Assembly: GCA_913778085.1 (NCBI GenBank)
Contig: CAJYXJ010000064.1
Span: 104,434-168,433 of the forward strand
Direction: 5' to 3'
Source: an uncultured Chryseobacterium sp.
Lineage (GTDB): Bacteria > Bacteroidota > Bacteroidia > Flavobacteriales > Weeksellaceae
DNA: 64,000 nucleotides
Position numbers and translations under genes: made by a program. The notes below the pieces were generated by a model. The model was not told where the DNA came from and did no database searches. It saw only the letters and a list, made by a program, of their open reading frames with translations. Of this stretch, positions 23,227 to 27,803 are shown piece after piece (the stretch's first letter is position 1; the number at the start of each line of letters is the position of its first letter).

Positions 23227-23436
23227 ATGAAAAACTTAAAAAAAATGTCCAGAGAAGGCTTAAAATCAATTAAAGGTGGCTATACTCCTGAATGTGTAAA
23301 TGCATGGAACAGTATGACAAAATGTTATAACTCAAAATCTCAATGTGAGATGGATCCATCCTCTCCTACTACAGATCTTGATGATCCTAATAGTCCTCAC
23401 TTTTGTATTGTAATTTGTAATAGATATTGCTATTAG
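23227..23436 (+). CDS. double-glycine leader, Cys-rich bacteriocin-like peptide
   Basis: 69 residues from ATG 23227, not the upstream in-frame codon at 23185, because the MKNLKKMSREGLKSIKGG start is a classic double-glycine leader like those of ComC/bacteriocin precursors and of the small 'bacteriocin-like' proteins common in Chryseobacterium. Cleavage after Gly18 would release a 51-residue peptide with six Cys (residues 23, 33, 40, 60, 64 and 68), enough for three disulfides, and an acidic middle (TTDLDDPN). No C39 peptidase-containing ABC exporter, immunity gene or modification enzyme lies next to it. It is followed by a strong terminator. Antimicrobial activity is not shown by the sequence; a secreted signalling or structural peptide is possible. 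Confidence 0.75.
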   Translation: MKNLKKMSREGLKSIKGGYTPECVNAWNSMTKCYNSKSQCEMDPSSPTTDLDDPNSPHFCIVICNRYCY

Positions 23437-23649: not shown

Positions 23650-24084
23650 TTACTTTAATCCATTAATTTGTTTCCTGTAATAAAACATCGGGATAATCAG
23701 CAGCAAAATTAAAGGTTGAATAACAAACCGCCGCATATAGAAAGAAAACAGGTATCCGACGTTAAGCCGGTCGTAAATACAGTACAGGTAAATGGGGAAA
23801 GTGATCAGAAAGATAATCATTATTAAAATAGCTCCCTGCATAGTCCATTGTCTGTTTCTGAACCAGAATTGAATGATCAGGCAGGAAAAAAGAAGATTTA
23901 AGACAAATCTGAAAAGATGGCCGGCAATTAATTTTCCCCATTCGAAACCCGGAAAAGGGATGTTCTTCTGGGCTTCATGAAAATAATTGAGGAAAGGATC
24001 ATAAAAGAGCTTGTCTTCCAGTACTCTGACGCCGATTAATCCCAATAAGCCGAGGGCTACTAAAAACCAGTTGAGCACTTTCAT
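23650..24084 (-). CDS. exosortase F system-associated membrane protein
   Basis: 144 residues with about four hydrophobic helices. The order and size match the small protein that always accompanies exosortase F in flavobacteria, with recognisable stretches such as RVLEDKLFYDPF, YFHEAQKN and YDRLNVGYLFSFYMRRF. Its start codon overlaps the stop of xrtF by four bases (ATGA), so the two are translationally coupled. The Arg/Tyr-rich segment near residue 105-120 is the most polar part. Its exact role is unknown; it is probably an accessory membrane subunit of the XrtF sorting enzyme. Confidence 0.8.
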   Translation of the reverse strand: MKVLNWFLVALGLLGLIGVRVLEDKLFYDPFLNYFHEAQKNIPFPGFEWGKLIAGHLFRFVLNLLFSCLIIQFWFRNRQWTMQGAILIMIIFLITFPIYLYCIYDRLNVGYLFSFYMRRFVIQPLILLLIIPMFYYRKQINGLK

Positions 24085-24602
24085 TTCTTCAATGCAAAAA
24101 ATTTAATCCAAACCAGCCATAGCACGACTACTGTTCCATAGATGATGGCAGGAAAAATAAAATCATGTGAAATTTTCCCGTATTGTTTATAGTCGGCGAC
24201 AACAATATTTAAACCTGCAATTCTGAGCAGATTCATCACATACAGCAAAATTAGACCTGCGGATACGAAAAGAAATGTTTTGGCACCCTTATAAAACGCA
24301 AAGACGAAGGCTACGAAAAGAATCATTACCGATACCGCATTGCAGCCTTCTACCATACGGGTTACATATTCCTGTTTTACGTAAAACCATACCTGCTCCC
24401 CTTTCACATCGTCATACAACTGTGTCGGGAAGCCTATGGAATTTTGGATACCGCATACTTGCTCTGCGATCATCCGGGAAAAAGGATCAAGCCCGGTTCC
24501 CTGAAACCGGTTCAGGAAGAACTGATAAGCGAAAAGCAGCACCAGGTATATGATGATGAAGCGCAGCAAAATGCCCAAAACAGGTTTGAAATCCTTTAGC
24601 AT
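24081..24602 (-). CDS. xrtF: exosortase family protein XrtF
   Basis: 173 residues, the short form typical of exosortase F. Exosortases are integral membrane cysteine transpeptidase-like enzymes that cleave C-terminal sorting tails of exported proteins. The catalytic triad is visible: Cys87 in VEGCNAVSVM, Arg127 in NLLRIAGLN and His146 in KISHDFIFP. About five hydrophobic helices surround these sites. No substrate with a recognisable PEP-CTERM-like tail is seen in the window. The minus-strand -7 box at 24607-24614 ends 4 bases before the ATG, so the mRNA should be leaderless; it diverges from the sugar kinase gene. Confidence 0.88.
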   Translation of the reverse strand: MLKDFKPVLGILLRFIIIYLVLLFAYQFFLNRFQGTGLDPFSRMIAEQVCGIQNSIGFPTQLYDDVKGEQVWFYVKQEYVTRMVEGCNAVSVMILFVAFVFAFYKGAKTFLFVSAGLILLYVMNLLRIAGLNIVVADYKQYGKISHDFIFPAIIYGTVVVLWLVWIKFFALKK

Positions 24603-24606
24603 ACTG

Positions 24607-24614
24607 CAAAGATA
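24607..24614 (-). promoter_or_regulatory. xrtF -7 box, leaderless
   Basis: TATCTTTG on the minus strand, 4 bases before the xrtF ATG at 24602. Confidence 0.55.
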
Positions 24615-24633
24615 GAAATTAACCGTAAATTAC

Positions 24634-24641
24634 TATCTTTG
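24634..24641 (+). promoter_or_regulatory. sugar kinase -7 box, near-leaderless
   Basis: TATCTTTG, 8 bases before the ATG at 24650. It forms a back-to-back pair with the xrtF promoter 19 bases away. Confidence 0.55.
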
Positions 24642-24649
24642 TTTCGCCT

Positions 24650-25669
24650 ATGATTTCTGATTACGCACAACGATTTTTTGAAAATTATACAGAAATACCA
24701 ACTTCTGAATTCATTACTCTGGCTCAAAGCGGTTCTGCAAGGGTTAATTTTCTGGCAGCTACCGGAATTGAAAAATATATAGTTACCTACAACGAAAATA
24801 TTCACGAGAACGAAAGTTTCCTGTATTATTCGGATATCTTTTCCCATTTAAAGTTGAATACTCCTGAAATTTTTGCCGTTTCCGAAGACCGGAAAATGTA
24901 TATCCAGGAATTTCTGGGAGAGCAGACGTTGTCCGAAATCATTACCGCAGAAGGACTTTCGGAGCGTGTAAAATCTTTTGTTCGGCAAACGCTGGAAAAA
25001 CTATATCGGCTGCAGCTTCTGACAAAAGATAAGGTAGATTTCAGTAAAACCTTTGAATACGAAAGCTATGACGAACTTCCGGTAACGCATGATCTTTATT
25101 ACTTTAAAAATTTCGTTGCGGATGTTCTGGAACTGGAATACCATAAATCCACCCTGCTGAAAGAATTTAAAGGCATCGTCCACCTCATCCAAAGCCTGGA
25201 ACCTAAAGGAGTGATGATCCGTGATTTCCAGGCCCGGAATATTATGGTGAATGAAAAAGATGAAGTTTCTTTTATCGATTACCAGTCGGCAATGAGAGGT
25301 CCGCTGATGTACGATGTAGTTTCTTTTCTCTTCCAGGCCAAAGCAAATTTTCCGGAAGATTTTAAAAAGGAAATGCTGGAATTTTACATTCGGCAGTTTA
25401 AAGATCAGGAAACCAGAGATCAACTAAAAGCTTCGGTAAAACCGATCCAGATGATGAGATTCCTTCAGGTATTGGGAGCTTATGGGTTCAGAGGCCTGAT
25501 CCAAAGGAAGCCGCACTTTATCGCAAGCCTCGAAAAAGGAATTGAAAATATAACAGCATTTGTAAATACCTGGGACGGGATGAAAGATTATCCCGAACTG
25601 GAGAAAGTAATCAAACTATTGAACTTGGAAAAAACGAGGTTAAAAATTGAAGGATTATTAAATAAATAA
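24650..25669 (+). CDS. aminoglycoside-phosphotransferase-fold sugar kinase, AmgK-like
   Basis: 339 residues, the size of Pseudomonas AmgK, which phosphorylates N-acetylmuramate and N-acetylglucosamine at C1 in cell-wall recycling. The fold is seen in GSARVNFLAATG near the start (nucleotide loop), the catalytic loop MIRDFQARNIMV with Asp192 and Asn197 (His of the usual HRD is Ile here), and the metal-binding SFIDYQSAMRGPLMYDV with Asp210. The two following genes encode a RapZ C-terminal domain and a MurU-like nucleotidyltransferase, so the natural reading is sugar to sugar-1-phosphate to UDP-sugar. Substrate identity is inferred from the neighbours and family resemblance. Start set by the -7 box 8 bases upstream. 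Confidence 0.8.
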   Translation: MISDYAQRFFENYTEIPTSEFITLAQSGSARVNFLAATGIEKYIVTYNENIHENESFLYYSDIFSHLKLNTPEIFAVSEDRKMYIQEFLGEQTLSEIITAEGLSERVKSFVRQTLEKLYRLQLLTKDKVDFSKTFEYESYDELPVTHDLYYFKNFVADVLELEYHKSTLLKEFKGIVHLIQSLEPKGVMIRDFQARNIMVNEKDEVSFIDYQSAMRGPLMYDVVSFLFQAKANFPEDFKKEMLEFYIRQFKDQETRDQLKASVKPIQMMRFLQVLGAYGFRGLIQRKPHFIASLEKGIENITAFVNTWDGMKDYPELEKVIKLLNLEKTRLKIEGLLNK

Positions 25670-25694
25670 GTATTACTTATCAATAAACACGGTA

Positions 25695-25770
25695 TTGTCA
25701 TTCCAAATCTCAACATCGGATTAGAAAACCATCTGGAAAGATTCGCGTTTTGTTTCCTAAGGAATGACAA
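25695..25770. repeat. 76-base element with 10-base terminal inverted repeats
   Basis: TTGTCATTCC at 25695-25704 is the exact inverse complement of GGAATGACAA at 25761-25770; inside, AAATCT and AGATT add partial symmetry. It has the look of a small non-coding intergenic palindrome (REP or MITE type) and encodes nothing. It lies between the sugar kinase and RapZ-like genes. Confidence 0.6.
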
Positions 25771-25840
25771 AGACAACAATTAAAACTTAGCATAGAACAA
25801 GACTTGCTCATTAACCGTTTAAAAGAATAATTAAAAGAAA

Positions 25841-26248
25841 ATGTTACATATTGATATACACAGTTTCTCTTATAAGAAAGGAGGAATTCCGAAAGATGAC
25901 ACAGGAAACGGGGGCGGTTTTACCTTCGATTGCCGGGGAATCCTGAATCCTGGACGAGTGGAAGAATATAAAATCCAAACCGGAAACGACATTGGCGTCC
26001 AGGAATACCTGGAAACCAAAACGGAGATGCCTAAGTTTTTAGAACTGATTAAAAGCCTGGTCTGCATTAACATCGACAATTATCTGGAAAGAGGTTTTGA
26101 AAACCTTCAGATCAATTTCGGTTGTACAGGCGGTCAGCACCGGTCGGTGTATTCGGCCATTAAGATTGCTCATTTCATTGAAGAAAAATACGGCAGTCAG
26201 GTTGAAATAAGCCTGCACCATGATGAGCAGCAGCAGCTTAATTCATAA
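25841..26248 (+). CDS. stand-alone RapZ C-terminal domain protein
   Basis: 135 residues. It aligns with the C-terminal half of RapZ (YvcJ), the RNase E adapter of E. coli whose C-terminal domain senses glucosamine-6-phosphate. Visible motifs are FSYKKGGIP, FDCRGILNPGR, TGNDIGVQEYL and the signature NFGCTGGQHRSVY (about 91-103). The N-terminal P-loop kinase domain of RapZ (about 150 residues) is absent, and the ATG starts right at the domain border, so this is not a truncated gene. It lies between an AmgK-like kinase and a MurU-like nucleotidyltransferase, hence amino-sugar sensing or binding is a reasonable inference. Confidence 0.85.
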   Translation: MLHIDIHSFSYKKGGIPKDDTGNGGGFTFDCRGILNPGRVEEYKIQTGNDIGVQEYLETKTEMPKFLELIKSLVCINIDNYLERGFENLQINFGCTGGQHRSVYSAIKIAHFIEEKYGSQVEISLHHDEQQQLNS

Positions 26249-26330
26249 ATGATAAATGATAATTGATAAATGATTATTAAGCATCTTGAAAGTTATCAAT
26301 CATTATTTATTACCTATTTAATCATAAACT

Positions 26331-27044
26331 ATGAAGGCTCTTATTTTTGCAGCAGGAAAAGGGACGCGGCTGAAACCTTTTACCGATCATCACCCAAAGG
26401 CACTGGCTAAAGTAAACGACATTCCGCTTCTGGAAAGAAACATTCGCTATTTAAAAAATTTCGGAATCACCGACTTTGTCATTAATATCCATCATTTTGG
26501 AGATCAGATTGTTGATTTTTTAAAGCAAAATGACAACTTTGGGTGTAAAATAGAAATCTCCGACGAATCTGCAGAACTGCTGGAGACGGGAGGCGGCCTG
26601 GTTTTTGCCAGAAGATTCCTCGATCACGGCGAAGATTTCCTGATTATGAATGCGGATATTCTTACCGACATCAACATCACGGATTTTGTGGAATACCATA
26701 AAAAGATAAAAGATTTTGCTACATTAGCCGTTTCGGACAGAGAAAGTTCGAGAAAACTGCTTTTTAACAGTGATCTGGTTTTGAGAGGATGGCTGAATGT
26801 AAAGACCGGCGAACAGAGACTTGCTGAATTTAACAAAGGCTTTAAGCCGTTGGCTTTTAGCGGTGTTCACTGTATCAACCCGGTGATTTTTGATAAAATA
26901 AAAAGAACAGGCAAATTTTCTGTCATGGAAGAATATCTGGACCTGATGCAGACTGAGCACATCCATGGTTTTCTGCATAACAGCATCCTGATCGATGTCG
27001 GAAGACCGGAATCCGTAACAGAAGCCGAAAAACATTTTAAATAA
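26331..27044 (+). CDS. sugar-1-phosphate nucleotidyltransferase, MurU-like
   Basis: 237 residues. The N-terminal signature ALIFAAGKGTRLKPFTDHHPKAL is that of nucleotidyltransferases that make NDP-sugars; the Lys in PKAL and the metal-binding Asp in NADILTD (about 105-111) are present. ETGGGLVFARRF matches MurU, which forms UDP-MurNAc from MurNAc-1-phosphate. The length is about that of MurU (about 220) and shorter than GlmU, with no C-terminal acetyltransferase. Preceded by the AmgK-like kinase and RapZ-C genes and followed 6 bases later by a LOG-family gene, so all four may be in one transcription unit. Mannose-1-phosphate or other sugars cannot be excluded. Confidence 0.85.
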   Translation: MKALIFAAGKGTRLKPFTDHHPKALAKVNDIPLLERNIRYLKNFGITDFVINIHHFGDQIVDFLKQNDNFGCKIEISDESAELLETGGGLVFARRFLDHGEDFLIMNADILTDINITDFVEYHKKIKDFATLAVSDRESSRKLLFNSDLVLRGWLNVKTGEQRLAEFNKGFKPLAFSGVHCINPVIFDKIKRTGKFSVMEEYLDLMQTEHIHGFLHNSILIDVGRPESVTEAEKHFK

Positions 27045-27050
27045 TTTTCA

Positions 27051-27803
27051 ATGGGAATGGAAGGAACCCGGGATGAAAGCTTAATCAATCCCGAATTTGA
27101 TGCTAACGAAACCAGGCTTCACAACAGCCTGAAACAGAAAACCTGGGATGAGACCGTAACAAAAGACAGCTGGATGGTTTTCAAGGTCATGGCGGAATTT
27201 GTAGATGGCTATGAAAAGCTGGCGAAGATAGGCCCATGTGTTTCCATATTCGGGTCGGCCAGGCTGAAGCCGGAGAGCAAGTATTATGAAATGGCCGTTG
27301 AGATCGCGGAAAAGATTACCAAAATAGGTTTCGGGATTATTACCGGTGGCGGTCCCGGTATTATGGAAGCAGGCAATAAAGGCGCTTTCAATGCGGAAGG
27401 AAAATCCATCGGCCTGAATATCGATCTTCCATTCGAACAGCATTTTAATCCATATATCAATAAATCGTATTCCATGAATTTCGATTATTTTTTCGTGCGA
27501 AAAGTCATGTTCGTGAAATATTCGCAGGGGTTTGTGGTGATGCCTGGAGGATTCGGCACCCTGGATGAGCTTACGGAAGCTTTAACATTAATTCAGACCA
27601 ATAAAATCGGAAAATTCCCGATCGTCCTTGTTGGCTCGGAATTCTGGGGCGGACTGCTGGATTGGTTTAAAGCAACATTGCTGAAAGAAAAAATGATCCA
27701 TGAAGAGGATCTTGACCTTTACCGTGTGGTAGACACGGCGGATGAAGCGGTAGCACATATCAAAGCGTTTTACGATAAATATTCCGTAAATGTCAATTTC
27801 TAG
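27051..27803 (+). CDS. LOG family (TIGR00730) protein
   Basis: 250 residues. The Rossmann-like LOG family includes nucleotide 5'-monophosphate nucleosidases and cytokinin-activating phosphoribohydrolases. The two nucleotide-binding signatures are GGGPGIMEAGNKGA (about 102-115) and PGGFGTLDE (about 165-173), with the catalytic Arg/Glu in this family in those loops. The chain starts with about 55 residues before the conserved SIFGSARLKPES, typical of bacterial members. The start may be ATG 27051 or 27057. It follows the MurU-like gene by 6 bases. A nucleotide-recycling role is likely; the substrate is unknown. Confidence 0.88.
   Translation: MGMEGTRDESLINPEFDANETRLHNSLKQKTWDETVTKDSWMVFKVMAEFVDGYEKLAKIGPCVSIFGSARLKPESKYYEMAVEIAEKITKIGFGIITGGGPGIMEAGNKGAFNAEGKSIGLNIDLPFEQHFNPYINKSYSMNFDYFFVRKVMFVKYSQGFVVMPGGFGTLDELTEALTLIQTNKIGKFPIVLVGSEFWGGLLDWFKATLLKEKMIHEEDLDLYRVVDTADEAVAHIKAFYDKYSVNVNF

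Follow-up and report, generated by a model that had tools for sequence, protein, structure and literature searches.

What does a free-standing copy of the C-terminal domain of RapZ do between a sugar kinase and a nucleotidyltransferase? The question is posed by a locus in the 64,000-nucleotide stretch of DNA analysed here (to be referred to as the window), from an uncultured Chryseobacterium sp. of the Weeksellaceae, Bacteroidota (contig CAJYXJ010000064.1, assembly GCA_913778085.1). The locus holds, all on the forward strand, an AmgK-like sugar kinase of the APH fold (339 amino acids, positions 24650–25669), a stand-alone RapZ C-terminal domain protein (135 amino acids, 25841–26248) and a MurU-like uridylyltransferase (237 amino acids, 26331–27044), with a LOG-family gene 6 bases further on. 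A sequence-only reading had made these four assignments, and the open frames, Pfam and NCBIfam confirm all of them. It had also proposed that the locus recycles N-acetylmuramic acid (MurNAc) with the help of an amino-sugar sensor that has lost the RNA-adapter half of RapZ. The salvage pathway is supported by the analysis below, the loss of the adapter half is not borne out, and an enzymatic role of the RapZ domain accounts for the genome pattern no less well than a sensor. We tentatively favor, over the sensor, a domain that would act as a phosphatase of MurNAc-6-phosphate in place of MupP. Three features put this role first: the domain is the conserved partner in the locus, its phosphate pocket offers a candidate nucleophile, and in most cases it is linked to the enzyme of the following step.

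The domain (PF22740) was found in 36 of the 296 phylum genomes sampled (the phylum is taken to be Bacteroidota in the GTDB sense, since the sample includes one metagenome-assembled genome, MAG, of the Ignavibacteriales), one copy in each, and all 36 loci were inspected individually. In 26 of them it is fused to the kinase, forming the C-terminal part of a protein of 475–513 amino acids with the kinase at the N-terminus. It is a separate gene adjoining the kinase in eight (the window, five others of its genus, G281 from its family, and G031), and the kinase is elsewhere in the genome in the remaining two (G180 and G271). A MurU homologue is located next door in 28 of the 36, at a distance of at most 165 bases except in L058 (419 bases); none is present in the stretch fetched around the other eight domain loci.

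The arrangement recurs far outside this strain, and is thus more than chance. A set of named loci, the best 80 of 583 found with the fused protein, includes Bacteroides, Phocaeicola, Parabacteroides and Muribaculum, as well as MAGs titled Calditrichia, Ignavibacteria, Acidobacteriaceae, Elusimicrobia and Delongbacteria. Fifty-eight of these loci hold a MurU homologue, 50 of them within 200 bases, and four end too early to judge. (L091 is the same genome as G216, and L108 the same as G156.) MurU is the only broadly recurrent neighbor, its cluster covering 82 of 115 loci and the next true neighbor clusters eight. In one locus, from a Bacteroidaceae MAG, kinase, RapZ domain and MurU form a single open frame of 760 amino acids (L144, 4001–6283, forward strand). 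The trio is therefore conserved well beyond the strain, and the fusion, together with the presence of the domain in every one of the 115 genomes of the window's family that have the kinase (see below), makes the RapZ domain a true third component.

In contrast, the idea that the protein has lost the RNA-adapter half of RapZ is not upheld. With no canonical RapZ among the 36 PF22740 matches from the phylum sample, no halving can be traced. Six of 12 genomes of the kind of MAG listed above hold an additional RapZ_C match besides the fusion, in a frame with the size of canonical RapZ (about 300 amino acids), so the two forms can coexist. Fission of the fused gene is clear for L043 beside L042 (tree support 100/99), while its direction is not settled for the window's family; the rebuilt tree left out L056 and L059 (proteins with only the RapZ domain), L160 and the rows of family f17.

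The kinase matches the Pfam family APH with 43.7 bits (cut-off 23.2) and has the features of that fold, with the catalytic Asp, the Asn and the metal Asp present. R191-D192-x4-N197 and D210 are invariant across 17 aligned relatives. Its best NCBIfam name is AmgK (NF045759, 48.5 bits). Of 25 fused relatives, all are matched by both AmgK models and at most two by any other kinase model. The transferase matches NTP_transferase (58.5 bits, cut-off 21.2) and, best among 29 families, MurU (NF045761, 145.5 bits). The best matches among solved structures are 4y7t and 8hhd, the latter named MurNAc-1-phosphate uridylyltransferase. A8-G9-x-G11-x-R13, P22-K23, N107-x-D109 and D222, which we take to be the nucleotidyltransferase signature and the metal-binding Asp, are conserved in at least 95% of 85 rows. 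As both proteins score below the curated cut-offs (550 for AmgK and 250 for MurU), they are called AmgK-like and MurU-like here.

The genome pattern points to the pathway. The kinase is present in 84 of the 85 genomes that lack MurQ, the MurNAc-6-phosphate etherase, versus 16 of the 211 that have it (Fisher 4e-56), and without family f17 in 21 of 21 versus 16 of 211 (4e-20), where the Fisher values ignore shared ancestry and the counts are read off profile-search tables. MurQ was counted as present at E < 1e-50; all other matches were above 1e-12. A kinase in nearly all MurQ-less genomes fits MurNAc salvage taking over where the etherase is absent, and supports the recycling pair of AmgK and MurU type that had been proposed. 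The relation between kinase and MurQ is one-sided. MurQ is retained in 16 of the 36 genomes with the domain, and the module can thus not be regarded as a mere substitute for it.

The two enzymes thus very probably have the substrates of MurNAc salvage (MurNAc and MurNAc-1-phosphate). They could instead handle another sugar, such as N-acetylglucosamine (GlcNAc) or heptose, and supply nucleotide sugars other than UDP-MurNAc for surface glycans. The scores under the two cut-offs and the 16 genomes that retain MurQ count against salvage and in favor of such a role, as do the match of the transferase to the heptose-1-phosphate guanylyltransferase model (69.9 bits) and the acceptance of GlcNAc by AmgK enzymes (taken from the model name). 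The MurU model is nevertheless clearly the best match of the transferase, and the AmgK models cover every fusion. Unrelated sugars are made unlikely by the distribution of the kinase among MurQ-less genomes, and we regard this alternative as quite improbable.

If the pathway is that of MurNAc salvage, what would the RapZ domain contribute? AnmK is present and MurQ absent in the window's genome. In this respect, and in the APH-type kinase beside a MurU-type uridylyltransferase, it is like the AmgK/MurU salvage (with AnmK and MupP) of Pseudomonas and Caulobacter. It differs by the fused or adjacent RapZ C-domain, by scores that fall well short of the AmgK and MurU cut-offs, and by the absence of any match over cut-off, in the 12 genomes tested here, to NF009695 (PRK13222), presumably the model that covers MupP. 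In Pseudomonas, MupP turns MurNAc-6-phosphate into MurNAc ahead of AmgK (PMC5371407; this and the other papers cited here are drawn on for individual passages). Genomes with AnmK and without MurQ must carry out this dephosphorylation if salvage runs through the kinase. All 13 such genomes, the window's included and from six families, have the RapZ domain, versus 23 of the 283 others (p 1.4e-13). The domain is found in 13 of 195 genomes with both AnmK and MurQ, in 7 of 72 with neither, and in 3 of 16 with MurQ only. Conversely, the kinase-bearing genomes without the domain all lack AnmK. Sixty-three of them belong to one family (f17), in which a distant kinase (69–150 bits) is present in 63 of 64 genomes without the RapZ domain, AnmK or MurQ, and is followed by MurU in all eight loci inspected. 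The other is G009, which has a closer kinase and MurU and likewise none of the three.

The 135-residue protein matches RapZ_C (PF22740) with 98.7 bits (cut-off 27) and no other Pfam family. Its fold is that of the RapZ C-terminal domain (CTD), and among profile models only those of RapZ match. The domain is shared with RapZ and YvcJ. Unlike these, the window protein has no P-loop N-domain, has a Gly in place of His190 (E. coli numbering) and a GGG stretch, and lacks all four basic residues of the tail. The N-domain (PF03668) is absent from the protein, and from the window's genome at E 0.001. The tail positions K270, K281, R282 and K283 of E. coli RapZ are V, Q, L and N, in a loose alignment of the tail. 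A canonical RapZ or RNA-adapter role was ruled out for the window protein, because the N-domain and the basic tail are missing; the tail is less clear among the 36 relatives, of which 18 have no Lys or Arg at the four positions, ten have one and eight have two.

The phosphate pocket, in comparison, is conserved. The loop of the window protein reads G94-C95-T-G-G-Q-H-R101-S102, and C247, T248, G249, H252, R253, S254, D182 and R184 (E. coli numbering) are kept in all 36 domains. This conservation is taken from the 36 HMM-found proteins because the 80 named loci were found with patterns that contained the pocket motif. The loop has the CX5R(S/T) form of the Cys-dependent protein tyrosine phosphatase (PTP) superfamily (C95-TGGQH-R101-S102), with C-x5-R-S kept in 36 of 36; for the present proteins a phosphatase activity is a hypothesis. 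The likeness of the E. coli RapZ loop to the PTP loop is pointed out in a passage of PMC7199280. Moreover, the C247A and C247S mutants of E. coli RapZ are described as inactive, the thiol is remarked on as possibly catalytic, and the density in a CTD crystal with glucosamine-6-phosphate (GlcN6P) is attributed to a likely 'chemically transformed product' (all in passages of PMC9841335). Streptomyces plasmid proteins annotated as RapZ also match E. coli RapZ over the C-domain only (L187, 2983–3606, forward strand); the GCTGGxHRS motif is not found in any L187 open frame of at least 100 amino acids.

The favored pathway builds on computational observations, namely the family-level identities, the fusion, the co-retention, the kinase where MurQ is missing and the conserved pocket. 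AnmK, encoded elsewhere in the genome, would convert anhydro-MurNAc to MurNAc-6-phosphate. Through its C-T-G-G-Q-H-R-S loop, the RapZ C-domain would bind the 6-phosphate and hydrolyze it, with Cys95 as the nucleophile and Arg101 and the loop amides holding the phosphate, to release free MurNAc. The kinase would phosphorylate the anomeric hydroxyl of MurNAc to give MurNAc-1-phosphate, from which the MurU-like enzyme would produce UDP-MurNAc, bypassing MurA and MurB. The two middle steps would take place on one polypeptide in 26 of the 36 genomes.

Several observations weigh against a phosphatase. No PTP fold is present in the 50 rows listed from 387 chains, nor among the Foldseek and VIA matches listed, a result that excludes nothing. 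The protein does not belong to the HAD superfamily of the MupP type, and its likeness to MupP is by analogy only. Matches to NF009695 below the cut-off are found in 12 of 12 genomes tested, so another phosphatase could carry out the MurNAc-6-phosphate step; the search is uninformative as a discriminator, with 1 of 14 controls over the cut-off. The contrast with domain-less kinases rests on about two events, as it comes mostly from one family (f17), and co-occurrence cannot separate the possible roles because domain and kinase are nearly always found together. In addition, 10 of the 36 domain-bearing phylum genomes have no AnmK match.

Similar difficulties are seen in the window's family. The domain is found in 117 of its 120 genomes, the kinase in 115 and AnmK over cut-off in 100, with no MurQ in any of the 120 at E 1e-20. 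The domain is present in all 115 kinase-bearing genomes, even where the genes are far apart (G308, G315 and G337), and is retained by 17 of the 20 AnmK-less genomes. Within the family it tracks the kinase better than AnmK. It is also found without a kinase match in G362, one of those 17, and in G381, which is 76% complete. Kinase and domain have both been lost in three genomes (G323, G383 and G391), none with AnmK over cut-off, and a single family genome (G321) has the fused form. In G362 the domain gene (L201, 5156–5572, forward strand) adjoins a putative undecaprenyl-pyrophosphate phosphatase gene, assigned by eye, and has NPY in place of NPG.

The AnmK-less genomes may form MurNAc-6-phosphate by other kinases. 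The BadF-type family PF01869, which we take to include MurK, is over its cut-off in 10 of 10 AnmK-less domain-bearing phylum genomes and in 11 of the 17 such genomes from the window's family, in 2 of 12 f17 genomes tested and not in G009. As a source of MurNAc-6-phosphate, this broad family is suggestive only. By analogy, Tannerella forsythia makes MurNAc-6-phosphate with MurK, as passages of PMC5790795 and PMC10465942 state.

A sensor accounts more simply for retention without AnmK. On this view the domain would bind an amino-sugar phosphate, GlcN6P or a different one, and thereby turn the kinase (and MurU) on or off, so that salvage is adjusted to de novo synthesis. Fusion to the kinase and co-retention with it regardless of AnmK are what a regulatory domain predicts. 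The E. coli CTD by itself binds GlcN6P, with a KD of 10 nM according to a passage of PMC7073468. However, His190, whose Ala mutant is described as inactive in E. coli in a passage of the RapZ literature, is Gly in all 36 domains, a difference in the pocket from E. coli RapZ, although 3 of 12 canonical RapZ domains also lack His at this position. There is also an invariant GGG 12 residues ahead of this position, and a sensor does not explain the absence of the domain from the f17 kinase genomes. On the phosphatase reading, the Gly might leave space for MurNAc as the bulkier sugar. We consider the sensor a real though somewhat doubtful possibility.

The domain might also have a structural role, dimerizing and scaffolding the kinase and MurU to channel MurNAc-1-phosphate. 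Formation of a dimer by the E. coli CTD (in a passage of PMC5737377) would suit this role, as would the triple fusion of L144 and the genomes in which the domain remains beside MurU where the kinase has moved off. Yet a scaffold need not conserve the pocket residues kept in 36 of 36 domains, and the domain is retained away from both kinase and MurU, for example in G308. A purely structural role is therefore unlikely.

A broader form of the phosphatase proposal is held more tentatively still. The RapZ C-domain would be a cysteine-dependent sugar-6-phosphate phosphatase, fused to an AmgK-type kinase in Bacteroidota and in Acidobacteria, Elusimicrobia and other MAGs, which takes MurNAc-6-phosphate to MurNAc-1-phosphate in one protein (to UDP-MurNAc in one MAG) in place of MupP, and E. 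coli RapZ would have begun as an amino-sugar phosphatase and later become an RNA adapter and sensor. If true, this would account for the dephosphorylation in MurNAc salvage across many bacteria, including gut Bacteroides, Phocaeicola and Parabacteroides, and would add a third component to the AmgK/MurU pathway. It would also suggest a role of RapZ before the RNA adapter, a point left open by the RapZ papers with their phosphatase-like loop and 'transformed' ligand. Pathways that bypass MurA bear on the fosfomycin response.

The locus exemplifies a variant of MurNAc salvage that is real and widespread, has the RapZ domain as third part and is not described in the literature searched. No publication joining RapZ with AmgK was found there, and the passages inspected of publications naming both RapZ and MurNAc contain no such link. 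The same pathway is known from T. forsythia, also of the Bacteroidota, likened here by description. This species is cited as possessing the pathway (passages of PMC7670621 and PMC13046382), and E. coli expressing its AmgK and MurU is the positive control for MurNAc-probe labelling in a passage of PMC13041923. By its label in the tree, Parabacteroides (L113), which has the fused form, belongs to the family of that species.

The LOG protein (250 amino acids, 27051–27803, forward strand) matches Pfam 'Lysine_decarbox' (117.4 bits, cut-off 27) and TIGR00730 (145 bits, cut-off 96.35). PADLOC gave a single weak match at the locus, to this protein. Its gene lies beside MurU in the window and in six of six relatives inspected from its family. 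Outside the family, among 29, 80 and 13 other loci blasted, it is near the module only in L046, 4.3 kb from MurU. It was therefore set aside as a component, and is probably a local neighbor and not part of the module. Among the family loci inspected, the RapZ gene stays with MurU, LOG and DUF6702 in G315, G337, G355, G358, G388, G407 and G336; in G308, G356, G379 and G387 it is found apart from them.

The gap between the kinase and RapZ genes is 171 bases in the window (26–171 bases when six family relatives are included), and that between the RapZ gene and MurU is 82 bases. The first contains an inverted repeat (25697–25768, arms GTCATTCC and GGAATGAC) with a hairpin fold. Upstream, the genes for exosortase XrtF and an exosortase-F-associated protein (23653–24602, reverse strand) diverge from the kinase across a 47-base gap (24603–24649). 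The kinase still adjoins XrtF in G315, G337 and G310, where the RapZ gene lies elsewhere, and not in G308. The gap carries TAnnTTTG boxes, which we take to be the Bacteroidota promoter box, at 24634 on the forward and 24614 on the reverse strand; there are 33 such boxes per strand across the whole window. Further upstream, a small Cys-containing peptide with a double-glycine-type leader (23227–23436, forward strand) matches the bacteriocin-like NCBIfam model NF047798 'leader_Chryseo' with 32.3 bits (cut-off 23.5).

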